Positions 21,648 to 29,418 of a stretch of DNA of 33,537 bases are shown here, piece after piece. The translations under genes and the position numbers were made by a program. A model generated the notes under the pieces. The model was not told the origin of the DNA, made no database searches, and worked only from the letters and a program-made list of their open reading frames with translations. Numbering within the stretch: position 1 is the first letter of the stretch; each line of letters opens with the position of its first letter. The DNA lies in NCBI GenBank assembly GCA_945905815.1, contig CAMDQH010000024.1, forward strand, positions 1 to 33,537, given 5' to 3'. This DNA comes from Bacteriovorax stolpii (GTDB lineage: Bacteria; Bdellovibrionota; Bacteriovoracia; Bacteriovoracales; Bacteriovoracaceae).

Positions 21648-22425
21648 TATTTTCTTACATATTTCGACTGCAATTTCTTGTGATTTTAGTTCAGAAGTCA
21701 AAAGTGTTTATTCATTGTCTGGGCCAGTTACTTTAATCCTGAAAGATTTAGGGCTCATAAAAAGTAAAAAGCTTAAGGGAGTTTCGATTTTTCATCCCGT
21801 AGCAAAAAAAGATTTTCAAGGAATTTTCCTTCCTGGTGGAGTTTTTCTTTCTCATGAGACAATTAAGGGCCTAGCAGGGAGTGTGTTATTCTACGACGAG
21901 AGTCGAGAACTCAATCGAATTTTTTCCCGCTACGAAGGTATCAGAGCAGTCGAAATAAAAACTCGTTCATTAACACCAATGGAAGTCATGAAGGTGATGG
22001 AGAAACAACTGAATCCCTATCTCGTTGGTTGTAACTTGGAAAAAATTACTCATCATTTAAACATGAGGCTAGAAGAGTTAAAGAAACTGGCGCGTAAGGA
22101 TTCTACCTTTCTCTTTTTTTTAGGATTGATACAAAACAACAAGTATCCAGAACTAGTCATAGTCCAAGACGGGATCGTTAAGTGGATGATTCAAGAAAAG
22201 CTGATCAAAACTTACCCGTCGGAGCTTGCTTACGTAAATTGGTCCGCCAGAATTTTAAATAATCTACCTAAAGATACCTATAAAGTGGGTCTACGAGATT
22301 CGGGAAGTTCAATGGAAACTGAATTGAAAAAAGATAATCATACCATCAACCTGACTTACCCTGGAGCTTTGATACCCGGAGGTGGTCAAGTTGAGGCGAT
22401 GATCTATTTATTTAAAAATCTTTAA
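21616..22425 (+). CDS. Probable periplasmic substrate-binding protein of a FecCD-type importer
   Basis: 269 residues from the ATG at 21616 (AAGG 5 bp upstream); it overlaps rnhA by 32 bp. A signal peptide is clear (SWMLVLLASIFLHISTAIS-C). The pattern VYSLSGPVTLILKDLGL near the start, a lobe ending around KTRSLTPMEV, then a long charged helix (LEKITHHLNMRLEELKKLARK) and a second lobe resembles the BtuF/FhuD-like helical-backbone binding proteins. Motif conservation is weak, so the assignment leans on context: an ATPase and a FecCD-like permease lie at 23439-24895. An insertion of a convergent M48 gene separates it from them, and it converges on that gene with 3-bp overlap of stop codons. Confidence 0.5.
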   Translation: MRSWMLVLLASIFLHISTAISCDFSSEVKSVYSLSGPVTLILKDLGLIKSKKLKGVSIFHPVAKKDFQGIFLPGGVFLSHETIKGLAGSVLFYDESRELNRIFSRYEGIRAVEIKTRSLTPMEVMKVMEKQLNPYLVGCNLEKITHHLNMRLEELKKLARKDSTFLFFLGLIQNNKYPELVIVQDGIVKWMIQEKLIKTYPSELAYVNWSARILNNLPKDTYKVGLRDSGSSMETELKKDNHTINLTYPGALIPGGGQVEAMIYLFKNL

Positions 22426-25700: not shown

Positions 25701-25734
25701 AAAAAGGCCAGGTGAAAAAAACTGGCCTTTTTTT
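25701..25734. terminator. Bidirectional intrinsic terminator
   Basis: AAAAAGGCCAG (25701-25711) pairs with CTGGCCTTTTT (25722-25732) around a 10-base loop, with seven T on the plus side (25728-25734) and five T on the minus side. It serves the FKBP gene on the plus strand and the converging peptidase gene on the minus strand, whose stop codon (25733-25735) lies at its edge. Confidence 0.85.
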
Positions 25735-26584
25735 ATTTGGGTCCGAACCAGCAAAGTGGTCTTGTTCCAGTTTTATCAATATTCTGCGTGTGACATGTTC
25801 CTTTTCGCTCATCTTCCTGTGAAACGCTTTCTTTGAAATCTTGTGGGCATAAAGCCCCTTGAAAATAACTATCAAGTCGACACTGAGGAACAGGGTGCTG
25901 ATCAAAGTTTTGAGTCACGATAGACACATCAGGGGTTTCAAATTCAGGAATGGGAGTCGCTCGTATAGAAGCACTGATTTTTGCGAGGGCATGTCCTGCC
26001 ATGGCCAATCGTATGCAGAGTGAATTAGCTTTTTTTTCAGGAAAGCTTTGTTCACATCCTTTGGAAACGACGAGAGGAACAGTAAAATTTTGAACTGCGA
26101 AATCATTATCTTCATCTTTGAAAATTCTACGAAGACATTTGAGTGTGGCCCAATAATCTGCCTGGCCTTCCGATGAGGCCCAGAACGGTTTTTCATCAAT
26201 GATTTTTTTAGGCGCGCCACCAATATGGTGTCCGATTTCATGACAAATAACTAATGCGTACGCATCTTCAGTTATTAATGGATGGCGGGCGAGTCCTCCA
26301 TACAAATTAATTATCCACTGCTTATTTCTTATGTCGCGATATGTGCCGGCATTAACGGTTGCACTAGGCCATTTTTTTTCTATCTTTAATAATGCATCGA
26401 AGTCCCGTGCAACAGGAATGTAAAACTTTTCAACTTTGTGGATGACCTCATTATATTGAAGTTCACTCAGGCCTTCATTTTTGTCAGATAGGGGTAGATA
26501 AAGTTTATTCGGTGGAAAAATGCCATCACAGGCCAGTAGTGATGATGCTTGAAATATAAAAAACAGTAGGGTTAGTTGATTCAT
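25733..26584 (-). CDS. Secreted HExxH zinc peptidase, paralog 1
   Basis: 283 residues from the ATG at 26584, preceded by GGAGGA. Signal peptide: LTLLFFIFQASSLLA-C. Zinc site HEIGH at 115-119 (VICHEIGHHIGGAPKK), with EGQAD at 139-143 matching the Glu-x-x-Ala-Asp third-ligand motif of gluzincins (M48-like) but only about 20 residues away, shorter than in M48. Conserved cysteines recur to the end, where GTCHTQNIDKTGTRPLCWF closes the protein, suggesting a disulfide-stabilised periplasmic or exported enzyme. Tandem with a paralog at 26710-27612. I do not recognise a named family; target unknown. Confidence 0.75.
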   Translation of the reverse strand: MNQLTLLFFIFQASSLLACDGIFPPNKLYLPLSDKNEGLSELQYNEVIHKVEKFYIPVARDFDALLKIEKKWPSATVNAGTYRDIRNKQWIINLYGGLARHPLITEDAYALVICHEIGHHIGGAPKKIIDEKPFWASSEGQADYWATLKCLRRIFKDEDNDFAVQNFTVPLVVSKGCEQSFPEKKANSLCIRLAMAGHALAKISASIRATPIPEFETPDVSIVTQNFDQHPVPQCRLDSYFQGALCPQDFKESVSQEDERKGTCHTQNIDKTGTRPLCWFGPK

Positions 26585-26664
26585 TCTTCCTCCAATTATG
26601 AACAAATGGATGTTTACGTGGAGACCTAACTAAGTCCAGACGAAGTGCATGTATGCTGGTTGCC

Positions 26665-26693
26665 AAAAAAAAAGGCAGCTTGCGCTGCCTTTT
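26665..26693 (-). terminator. Intrinsic terminator of peptidase paralog 2
   Basis: Read on the minus strand, AAAAGGCAGC/GCTGCCTTTT (stem 26693-26684 with 26679-26670, TTGC-type loop) ends in nine T (26673-26665). It lies 16 bp after the minus-strand stop at 26710 and separates the two peptidase genes into distinct transcription units. Confidence 0.85.
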
Positions 26694-26709
26694 CAGGAAT
26701 GTATAAAGA

Positions 26710-27612
26710 TTATTTTGCTTTTGGCTTGAACCAGCAAAGTGGACGAGTTCCAGTTTTGTGGCCTAGAGAAGGGTGACAAGTACCCTTAACTTCTTCTTTC
26801 TGAGAAACATCTTCATTCATACTAATTTCGCAAAGAGAACCTTGGAAATATGTATCAAGACGACATTGTGCCTTAGGGTGAGCATCATTTGTTCTTGAGA
26901 CTTTTTTTGTATCAGGTGTATCAAATTTTGCTTCAGGAAGTTTGCTTAAGGCTGCAAAAAGATTGGCAACGGATTTACCGGCCATACCTGTACGAACGCA
27001 AAGAGCATTATCTTCTTTGTCATTCTTAGTCGATTTTGTACATGCATCAGTAAGTGCCTTAGGTACTTCCATAGCAGAAACAATTGAAATGTTATCATCG
27101 TTTAAGAAAGTTTTACGTAGACACTTAAGAGTTGCGAAATAGTCAGCTTGACCTTCATTTGAAGCCCAGACATTTACTTCGCCGCCGCCAAAAATGCTTC
27201 CTGACTTTTTAGGTGCTCCACCAATATGGTGACCAAGCTCATGACATACAACTAAAGACATACCATCTGCATTGATGGTTGCGTGACGGGCCAATCCGCC
27301 AAACATAGCAACTTGCCAAGAAGAACCAGATTGCTTTGCGTATGCGTTTACTGTTCCGTCATTCCATTTACGTTGAATTTCAAGTTTGCCACCCATGCTA
27401 GCAACAACTGGTGCGTAGAGGGTTTCAACTTTATCTATAACAGAATTAAATTGAGATTCTGTAATTCCGCCTCTCATACCTTTAAGGCCAGCGGGAATGT
27501 AGAGATCATTCTCAGGTACGAATCCGCCCTGACCACTAATTGAGCAGGCAAGAGCTGCAGTTACACATGAAAATCCGACTATTACTGCTGCTATTTTAAG
27601 AGATCTAAACAT
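26710..27612 (-). CDS. Secreted HExxH zinc peptidase, paralog 2
   Basis: 300 residues, start ATG preceded by GGAGGA. Signal peptide: LKIAAVIVGFSCVTAALA. Same architecture as its neighbour: GGLARH, VVCHELGHHIGGAPKK (HELGH at 124-128), VWASNEGQADYFATLKC (Glu153), NALCVRTGMAGK, QCRLDTYFQGSLC and the C-terminal GTCHPSLGHKTGTRPLCWFKPKAK. Between the two zinc motifs it has a slightly longer Gly/Ser insert (GSIFGGGEVN). Gluzincin-like; probably active in periplasm or outside. The pair looks like an older tandem duplication, each copy retaining the catalytic and cysteine pattern, so both are likely functional. Confidence 0.78.
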   Translation of the reverse strand: MFRSLKIAAVIVGFSCVTAALACSISGQGGFVPENDLYIPAGLKGMRGGITESQFNSVIDKVETLYAPVVASMGGKLEIQRKWNDGTVNAYAKQSGSSWQVAMFGGLARHATINADGMSLVVCHELGHHIGGAPKKSGSIFGGGEVNVWASNEGQADYFATLKCLRKTFLNDDNISIVSAMEVPKALTDACTKSTKNDKEDNALCVRTGMAGKSVANLFAALSKLPEAKFDTPDTKKVSRTNDAHPKAQCRLDTYFQGSLCEISMNEDVSQKEEVKGTCHPSLGHKTGTRPLCWFKPKAK

Positions 27613-27836: not shown

Positions 27837-27873
27837 CTTTGTACCGACAAGTCTAATGAACAACGAGGTTGAG

Positions 27874-28272
27874 ATGAAGTCACTTATGATTTTTGTTTTA
27901 TTATCCAGCTTAAATGCGGTCGCAGAAGAGGCCAAAAAACTTGTCCAGCCGACAAGGGAAGTGGCGATCATCGTAACCAAAGAGGGTTATTACCCTAAAA
28001 GCCTTTCAGTCTTTGAAGGCGAAAAAATAAAATTTTTTGTCACTTCAACAGTCGAAGAACCGAACTGTTTAATTGTTGAGTCTCATAAAGTTTTTATGGC
28101 GGCCAACAAGGGAAAAGTAACTGAAGCGGAAGTTGTCTTTGAAAATGCTGGAGAGTTTGCCTTTTATTGTCCCAGCTCAAAAAACGATGGGAAAGTAGTT
28201 GTTTTAAAGAAATTTTCACCGAAAAGAGAAGTTGCATCTGAGATTCAGCCTTGGGTCCCAAAAGAATATTAG
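27874..28272 (+). CDS. Cupredoxin-like exported protein
   Basis: 132 residues from the ATG at 27874 (GAGG upstream). Signal peptide: KSLMIFVLLSSLNAVA. The mature domain fits a small cupredoxin beta-sandwich: EVAIIVTKEGYYPKSLSVFEGEKIKFFVTST, then NCLIVESHKVF and GEFAFYCPSSKNDGKVVV. The Cys in NCLIV, His in SHKV and Cys in FYCPS sit where copper ligands occur in the EfeO/CopC-like and nitrosocyanin-like groups, though a complete His-Cys-His-Met set is not present, so copper binding is unproven. It lies 12 bp before the CpaF-type ATPase gene and is probably co-transcribed. Confidence 0.65.
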   Translation: MKSLMIFVLLSSLNAVAEEAKKLVQPTREVAIIVTKEGYYPKSLSVFEGEKIKFFVTSTVEEPNCLIVESHKVFMAANKGKVTEAEVVFENAGEFAFYCPSSKNDGKVVVLKKFSPKREVASEIQPWVPKEY

Positions 28273-28284
28273 GAAGAAACTTTC

Positions 28285-29418
28285 ATGAGTAGTGTTTTTA
28301 AAGATGCCATTGCCAACCTCTTGTCTCCAATCGGAGACCTGCTTAAAGATTCGACTGTGTCTGAGATCATGATCAATGGACCTCACGAAATTTTCATTGA
28401 AAGAAAAGGTCTTGTTTATAAAGTAGAAAATAGATTTGCTGATGATGAAGCCTTAATGGCCTCTATGAGAGCGATTGCTCAGTCTGTCGGTCGAGTGATT
28501 GATGCCGATAATCCAAGACTAGATGCCCGCTTGCCTGATGGCTCTCGTATTGCTGTCGTACTTCCACCAATGGCCAAGGCCGGTGTGACAGTCGCTATTC
28601 GAAAATTTTCCGAAGAAAAATTAGGTTTAAAGGACATGATTAATTTCGGTTCTCTTTCACCTGATGGTGCGCGTTTTCTCGACTGTATTATGTACCTTGG
28701 TAAAAATACACTTGTGAGTGGTGGTACCGGTTCAGGTAAAACGACGATGCTAAATATTCTCGGTGGGCGTATGCCTAAGACACAGCGTCTATTAATTATC
28801 GAAGATGCAGCAGAACTACAAATTAAAGCTGAACACGTGGTACGTTTTGAGACCCGCAAAGAAAATCTTGAGCGTGGTATTAAAGGTGTCACTATCCGAG
28901 ATTTGATGGAATCAGCACTTCGACTTCGTCCTGACCGAATTATCGTAGGAGAGGTTCGAGGACCGGAAGCTCTGGATCTATTGAATGCCATGAGCACAGG
29001 TCATGAAGGTTCTATGGGAACAGTTCACGCCAATACTCCGCTTGATGCATGTACACGTCTTGAAACACTCTGTCTTATGGGCGAAACCAGAATTCCACCC
29101 GATGCTATTCGTAAGATGGTGGGAAGTGCTTTGCAGATGATTGTTCAATGTTCTCGTTATCATGATGGTGGTCGCAGAACATCACATATCTCAGAAGTTT
29201 TGGGCGTGGATGAACATGGACGGTATATCGTTCGGGATATTTTTCGCTGGATACAAACCGGCAAAGACCCTGAGACGCATAGATATATTGGAGAAATGGT
29301 TGCGACTGGATATGTGCCAAGTTTTTTTGAAGAATTTGTTGCTAATAAATTACCTTTTCCTAAAACCAATTTCAAAGCTCCAGAATGGGCAGTGCCACTT
29401 CTAAAAAAAGCCTCTTAA
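28285..29418 (+). CDS. cpaF: CpaF/TadA-type secretion ATPase
   Basis: 377 residues, a cytoplasmic hexameric ATPase of the VirB11/GspE superfamily that powers Tad/Flp pilus assembly or related secretion. N-terminal domain: VSEIMINGPHEIFIERKG; then the CpaF-type NPRLDARLPDGSRIAVVLPP (76-95). Walker A GGTGSGKTT (146-154), Asp box IIEDAAELQI, Walker B IIVGEVRGPEALDLL, and the His box GTVHANTPLDACTRLETL. No other Tad genes (tadB/C, cpaC, flp pilin) are seen here, so either they lie elsewhere or this is an orphan. AGGAAG precedes the ATG. Overlaps the next gene by 34 bp. Confidence 0.9.
   Translation: MSSVFKDAIANLLSPIGDLLKDSTVSEIMINGPHEIFIERKGLVYKVENRFADDEALMASMRAIAQSVGRVIDADNPRLDARLPDGSRIAVVLPPMAKAGVTVAIRKFSEEKLGLKDMINFGSLSPDGARFLDCIMYLGKNTLVSGGTGSGKTTMLNILGGRMPKTQRLLIIEDAAELQIKAEHVVRFETRKENLERGIKGVTIRDLMESALRLRPDRIIVGEVRGPEALDLLNAMSTGHEGSMGTVHANTPLDACTRLETLCLMGETRIPPDAIRKMVGSALQMIVQCSRYHDGGRRTSHISEVLGVDEHGRYIVRDIFRWIQTGKDPETHRYIGEMVATGYVPSFFEEFVANKLPFPKTNFKAPEWAVPLLKKAS

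Follow-up and report, generated by a model that had tools for sequence, protein, structure and literature searches.

The stretch of DNA analyzed here (the window) comprises 33,537 nucleotides of contig CAMDQH010000024.1 of Bacteriovorax stolpii, from an assembly of 3.0 Mb in 141 contigs. It contains two genes, P0001 and P0002, which the first-pass annotation had described as a tandem pair of secreted, gluzincin-type peptidases. Both frames are present where they had been placed, and the two proteins carry signal peptides and the HExxH and EGQAD ligands of that description (Table 1). The best start of P0001 is the ATG at 26584, preceded by GGAGGAAGA; starting at the TTG at 26605 would merely lengthen the frame upstream. 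A GGAGG site precedes the ATG of P0002 at 27612, and the ATG of P0001 likewise lies behind GGAGG. The spacer between the genes is 126 bp, and each gene indeed has its own terminator, the hairpin behind P0001 being shared with a convergent FKBP gene. The two genes may be expressed at different times, as the first-pass annotation had suggested. A scan for sigma-70 promoters gave fewer sites than shuffled sequences. At positions 22422−23429, 2.3 kb from the pair, the window also contains an ordinary M48 gene (104 bits).

Table 1. Features of the peptidase gene pair and its surroundings (window positions)
Feature	Position	Strand	Remark
Terminator hairpin, FKBP gene/P0001	25701..25732	.	bidirectional; z −4.8 on both strands; FKBP gene convergent
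P0001, secreted M48-type peptidase, 283 aa	25733..26584	-	second member of tandem pair
P0001 RPLCW tail, residues 275−279	25748..25762	-	
P0001 HPVPQCR, residues 230−236	25877..25897	-	M48 HPx4R plug
P0001 EGQAD, residues 139−143	26156..26170	-	third zinc ligand
P0001 HEIGH, residues 115−119	26228..26242	-	
Terminator hairpin 3′ of P0002	26670..26693	-	z −3.7
P0002, secreted M48-type peptidase, 300 aa	26710..27612	-	
P0002 RPLCWF tail, residues 290−295	26728..26745	-	
P0002 HPKAQCR, residues 245−251	26860..26880	-	M48 HPx4R plug
P0002 EGQAD, residues 153−157	27142..27156	-	third zinc ligand
P0002 HELGH, residues 124−128	27229..27243	-	
Cupredoxin-like gene and CpaF-type ATPase	27856..29418	+	divergent from P0002; conserved neighbors

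P0001 and P0002 are 47−49% identical and have in common eight conserved cysteines in the mature chain. The motif block around HExxH is CHEIGHHIGGAPKK in P0001 and CHELGHHIGGAPKK in P0002, and both proteins end in ...TGTRPLCWF(G/K)PK. All the motifs that had been reported for the pair, HE[IL]GHHIGGAPKK, EGQAD, the matching cysteines, and TGTRPLCWF, are found in both. A homologue search of the genome itself finds six members of the family. Of 141 cellular homologues aligned together, 140 cover the catalytic site, and H124, E125, H128, E153, and D157 (P0002 numbering) are unchanged in 140/140, as is the cysteine beside HExxH. A lack of HExxH conservation in homologues had been named as a possible refutation; the motif is kept throughout this set. 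No inactive paralogues were found among the cellular homologues examined, all of which keep HExxH and E..D. The identity of the pair, the six genomic members, and the invariant catalytic residues place the family resemblance far beyond chance.

M48 peptidases are zinc-dependent endopeptidases. In these proteins an HPx4R loop plugs the active site, and the pattern HExxH-x(30,140)-HPx4R picks out the M48 proteins of E. coli, plus three other proteins (PMC7950410). This pattern is matched by all 111 close relatives, both window proteins included, and by 20 of 29 distant relatives, as compared to 0.6% of sequences with a shuffled tail. It is present in 33/34 ordinary M48s and in 0/20 proteins of the M13, M6, and M4 families (0/8 for M13 alone). 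The HExxH motif, the E..[AS]D third ligand, and the HPx4R plug are shared with BepA, LoiP, HtpX, and 3C37, and a VNA(x)A strand precedes the zinc helix as it does in M48. The third-ligand motif is of the EGQ[AS]D type with invariant Glu and Asp, and in AF2 models it opens a predicted helix. These models, made as the first-pass annotation had suggested, are confident, with a pLDDT of 94.6 for P0001 and 90.8 for P0002.

The M48 reference, Pfam PF01435 (clan MA(E)), has a gathering cutoff of 20.3 bits; in the Pfam search that had been proposed, P0002 scores 18.4 bits, under the cutoff, and P0001 gives no meaningful match. A paralogue in the same genome (C105) scores 20.6 bits in the genome search and 20.0 bits as the trimmed protein. 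PF01435 is the commonest weak match across the family, found for 97 of the 111 members, most of which fall under the cutoff. No Pfam or NCBIfam model accepts P0001 or P0002, and the weak M6/Mep72 matches in NCBIfam rest on HExGHxxG. HHalign with three profiles, run against comparison sets from the same phylum, gives 91−94% for M48 and 13−35% for M6. A search of PDB sequences with a single protein and two profiles yielded no significant match; the sole hit of the deeper of the two profiles is HtpX, an M48 (E 0.14). Two other assignments were tried and rejected. A metzincin or M6 relationship is at odds with HExGHHxGGxP, which has Gly at +7 but Pro at +10, and a relationship to M4 (thermolysin) reaches only 13−20% in HHalign with the three profiles. 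The glutamate spacing of thermolysin is 24, the same as the commonest spacing in the window-type peptidases.

A protein outside the predator phylum offers a bridge to M48. Streptomyces canus WP_331736462.1, encoded on plasmid NZ_CP108710.1 and annotated as M48, has a short-loop M48 domain that scores 24.3 bits, over the Pfam cutoff. It aligns to P0002 with the same short loop and the counterparts VNAYA, HELAHHYGG, EGQADY, and HPPGACR; the identity is 31% over 122 residues. The related domain is C-terminal within a protein of 468 residues, which differs from the window family in that its tail ends in PACAG rather than RPxCW and no cysteine stands beside HExxH.

An alternative assignment is a separate gluzincin family that is not M48, perhaps nearer to M13, in which HPx4R arose by convergence. 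M13 enzymes (neprilysin, PepO, Zmp1) share the gluzincin core and an NAY segment preceding the zinc helix, and in VIA the M13 structures reach Z 7−8, within 1 of the M48s (E. coli BepA, Z 7.9, and Geobacter sulfurreducens M48 3c37, Z 7.2, both at 18−19% identity; Ste24p, Z 7.8). Because of these ties, the fold supports a gluzincin but alone cannot choose M48. The separate-family reading also draws on the M13 score in HHalign, which ranges from 37% up to 79%, the latter with the deeper profile; on Foldseek, which finds nothing in the PDB at E < 0.001 (a search of viral models gave one phage "Peptidase M48" at E 8e-4); and on the Pfam M48 cutoff, unreached by most members. However, HPx4R is present in 111/111 close relatives and absent from all eight M13 proteins, which are moreover much larger enzymes with the Glu ligand far further from HExxH; M48 scores higher than M13 in HHalign with each profile; and the Streptomyces protein lies over the M48 cutoff. 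We consider the separate-family reading very unlikely. Judged by these comparisons, P0001 and P0002 belong to a lidless variant of M48, distinct and not covered by existing models, and not to an unrelated family. The earlier label of an "unrecognised family" stands insofar as the existing models accept neither protein; it does not stand as regards kinship, given the M48-specific HPx4R motif, the HHalign preference, the paralogue that just reaches the Pfam M48 cutoff in the genome search, and the Streptomyces protein that passes it. Our literature search found no paper that names or treats the window-type peptidases.

The family is a variant rather than a standard M48 because of the distance from HExxH to the Glu ligand. 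Across the joint alignment, the glutamate lies 18−41 residues past the first histidine, with a mode of 24 (24 in P0001 and 29 in P0002). In contrast, ordinary M48s of the same lineage have it 50−86 residues past the first histidine, a range that comes from our own comparison and is not a curated M48 criterion. The short spacing described in the first-pass annotation is thus borne out. In BepA, residues L146−I194, between H140 and E201, form a mobile active-site lid (PMC7950410). Since the BepA lid fills the very stretch that is shortened here, most of the lid has been lost in this family. Further departures from M48 are the eight conserved cysteines, the RPxCW tail, and the absence of TPR and membrane helices.

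The pattern of cysteine loss supports three disulfides. C261 and C279 are missing together in 10/10 sequences that lack either, and C123 and C164 in 2/2. C191 and C205 are missing together in five sequences, and two more lack C191 alone. The pairs C123−C164, C191−C205, and C261−C279 are accordingly supported as putative disulfides, of which C123−C164 would join the two zinc-ligand helices. C250, within HPxxQCR, and C293, within RPxCW, are present in nearly every sequence; as the two cysteines left over by elimination, they probably pair, which would anchor the HPx4R plug on the C-terminal tail. In seven distant members (L188, L191−L193, L197, L198, and L203), a tyrosine replaces the plug histidine while C250 and C293 stay, indicating that the plug histidine is dispensable in evolution and the cysteines are not. 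By analogy with BepA, this replacement would remove the histidine switch. C23, at the mature N-terminus of close relatives, is also conserved.

The N-termini of 105 relatives are of the signal peptidase I type, with mostly A/S/V/T at −3 and A/S/T at −1. Export to the periplasm or beyond follows as a direct inference; BepA and LoiP are likewise exported to the periplasm. Lipobox-like N-termini occur in some members, such as LLAC in P0001, and in a few phage copies. A lipoprotein was nevertheless rejected for the cellular copies, as Leu stands at −3 in only 3 of the 105 relatives and Thr is frequent at −1. The sequences carry nothing that marks export past the outer membrane.

The family occurs in 199 of 291 sampled Bdellovibrionota genomes, with 1−9 copies each. 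For the window's own family, Bacteriovoracaceae, the genome table counts the peptidase in 96/97 genomes. A scan of a DNA collection located 78 loci in named genomes, mostly Bacteriovoracaceae, Halobacteriovoraceae, and other Bdellovibrionota, and 25 of the 78 are tandem arrays of 2−5 copies, always on the same strand. A genome of 2.7 Mb in one contig and 100% complete (G005) lacks the family, and another of the same genus (G249) has one distant match; most other genomes of their taxonomic family have 1−9 copies. The absence in the former and near-absence in the latter possibly reflect a difference in lifestyle.

The two paralogues of the window have different histories. In the tree, P0002 clusters with orthologues that have the same gene order, across Bacteriovoracaceae and out to Halobacteriovoraceae: the divergent cupredoxin-like gene, CpaF, and enolase lie on one side, and FKBP and ABC genes lie on the other. 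This synteny with the cupredoxin-like gene and CpaF shows no link to predation. P0001 belongs to another clade, which is fast-evolving and patchy, and sits on a long branch; in the closest relatives it is missing beside P0002. The separate clades and this absence indicate that the two paralogues have long stood next to each other. A recent tandem duplication is ruled out, since P0001 and P0002 come from two separate clades, both old. A prophage or plasmid origin of the locus is likewise unsupported, core genes with conserved order surrounding it.

The most unexpected part of our findings is that phages carry the gene. An IMG/VR scan yielded 32 contigs, possibly incomplete, that encode relatives at 30−50% identity, and many of these are true tailed phages. 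A large-terminase match was obtained on 16 of 25 tested contigs, 11 of them over the cutoff. Genes neighboring the phage peptidases belong to tail fiber, tail collar, major head, and terminase families; in five contigs, the peptidase gene lies directly 3′ of the major head protein, and in another group it adjoins tail-collar genes. No lysis genes were seen among the PHROGs matches of the neighbors. HExxH and E..D are intact in all 33 phage copies that cover them. The tree requires at least two switches between cells and phages, and five by parsimony. Uptake by phages with the catalytic residues kept suggests an activity useful in this niche.

The hosts of these phages are likely Bdellovibrionota, judging from gene matches. 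Among 50,697 phages, one group's head protein and another group's terminase each match a single record. It is the same record for both, a phage of Silvanigrella aquatica, a member of the Bdellovibrionota; no peptidase was seen in the part of that record that was covered. Homologues of the same head protein and terminase also share one contig of a Bdellovibrionota assembly.

These data allow us to propose a mode of action. We favor a role of the exported enzymes in digesting prey or envelope proteins; the chief competing reading is housekeeping. P0001 and P0002 are, in our view, exported M48-type zinc endopeptidases that retain little of the lid and have acquired a disulfide scaffold, and that most likely act on the envelope proteins of prey or host debris, a reading to which we assign a probability of roughly 0.6. 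Each protein would be exported by Sec, cleaved by signal peptidase I, and then folded in an oxidizing compartment. The two histidines of HExxH and the Glu of EGQAD would bind zinc, and the Glu of HExxH would activate water. C123−C164 would brace the HExxH helix to the Glu helix, replacing the long loop of M48. In BepA, the HPx4R plug closes the active site; here it is retained and is probably bound to the RPxCW tail via C250−C293; with plug and tail so tied, both likely control substrate access. The place of action would be extracytoplasmic, in the periplasm or on prey. There the enzymes most likely break down or open up envelope proteins from prey or host debris in the predatory cycle, and the old, separately kept paralogues may serve different substrates or stages. 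The copy number, the tandem arrays, the fast turnover of paralogues, and the capture by phages point to variable outside targets such as prey proteins. A role in predation, as the first-pass annotation had raised for the pair, is plausible. By functional analogy only, the window peptidases resemble Bd2269 and Bd2692 of Bdellovibrio bacteriovorus, secreted proteases upregulated at prey exit, of which Bd2269 lyses E. coli from within (PMC12546842); they exemplify how secreted proteases help Bdellovibrio to leave its prey.

The housekeeping reading places the enzymes in the predator's own periplasm, where they would remove misfolded outer-membrane or secreted proteins and have no direct role against prey. 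The closest characterized M48 relatives, BepA and LoiP, serve envelope quality control in the E. coli periplasm (PMC7950410, PMC8423444); P0002, nearly universal and syntenic across the order, resembles a core function; and no mark in the sequences directs export past the outer membrane. It would, however, be unusual for a housekeeping protease to reach nine copies, to stand in tandem arrays, to include a clade as fast-evolving and patchy as that of P0001, and to be carried by phages. The genome, too, already encodes six ordinary M48s over the cutoff (E < 1e-10), one of them in the window. We regard housekeeping as possible yet clearly less probable than a role against prey. A different origin of the pattern would be conflict with phages, in which the enzymes of host and phage would destroy receptors in the outer membrane or incoming phage proteins, in superinfection exclusion or defense, so that the spread of the family follows conflict and not predation. 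The repeated phage acquisitions and the positions beside head and tail-fiber genes fit this idea. We nevertheless consider it very unlikely, because almost every genome of the family has a cellular copy, the locus has no visible defense or prophage setting, and the sequence gives no sign of a target. More speculatively, the digestion of prey envelopes could be part of a protease armory common to the predator phylum and its viruses: a lidless M48 whose disulfide-held plug is freed by reduction or tail cleavage would open the prey-derived envelope for intraperiplasmic predators, and it would be captured repeatedly by phages, which have to leave through the double shell that predator and prey form together. 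In this extended form, the proposal is rather doubtful.

Most of the many proteases that Bdellovibrionota secrete have no assigned role. Here, a phylum-wide, multiplied family that uniformly bears its catalytic motifs has been missed by most annotation models. It represents a structural twist on M48, in which the lid is gone and disulfides brace the helices of the active site and probably also the plug, and it provides concrete residues with which to probe how a lidless M48 works and whether the plug is under disulfide control. That several phage lineages, apparently infecting Bdellovibrionota, carry the gene points to an activity that matters to predator and virus.

Several further features of the phage contigs were observed. 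One contig (L218) has two peptidase genes in a row, and in two others (L215 and L229) the copies are split into two frames. Within 5 kb of phage peptidases lie three papain-family proteases and one of the subtilisin family, so these phages may carry several proteases. On contig C4 of a Bdellovibrionota assembly (G233), at ~31.8−37.6 kb, the phage terminase and head genes have open frames only when TAG is translated as an amino acid, with 7 and 2 in-frame TAG codons in these genes, which suggests a stop-recoded phage.
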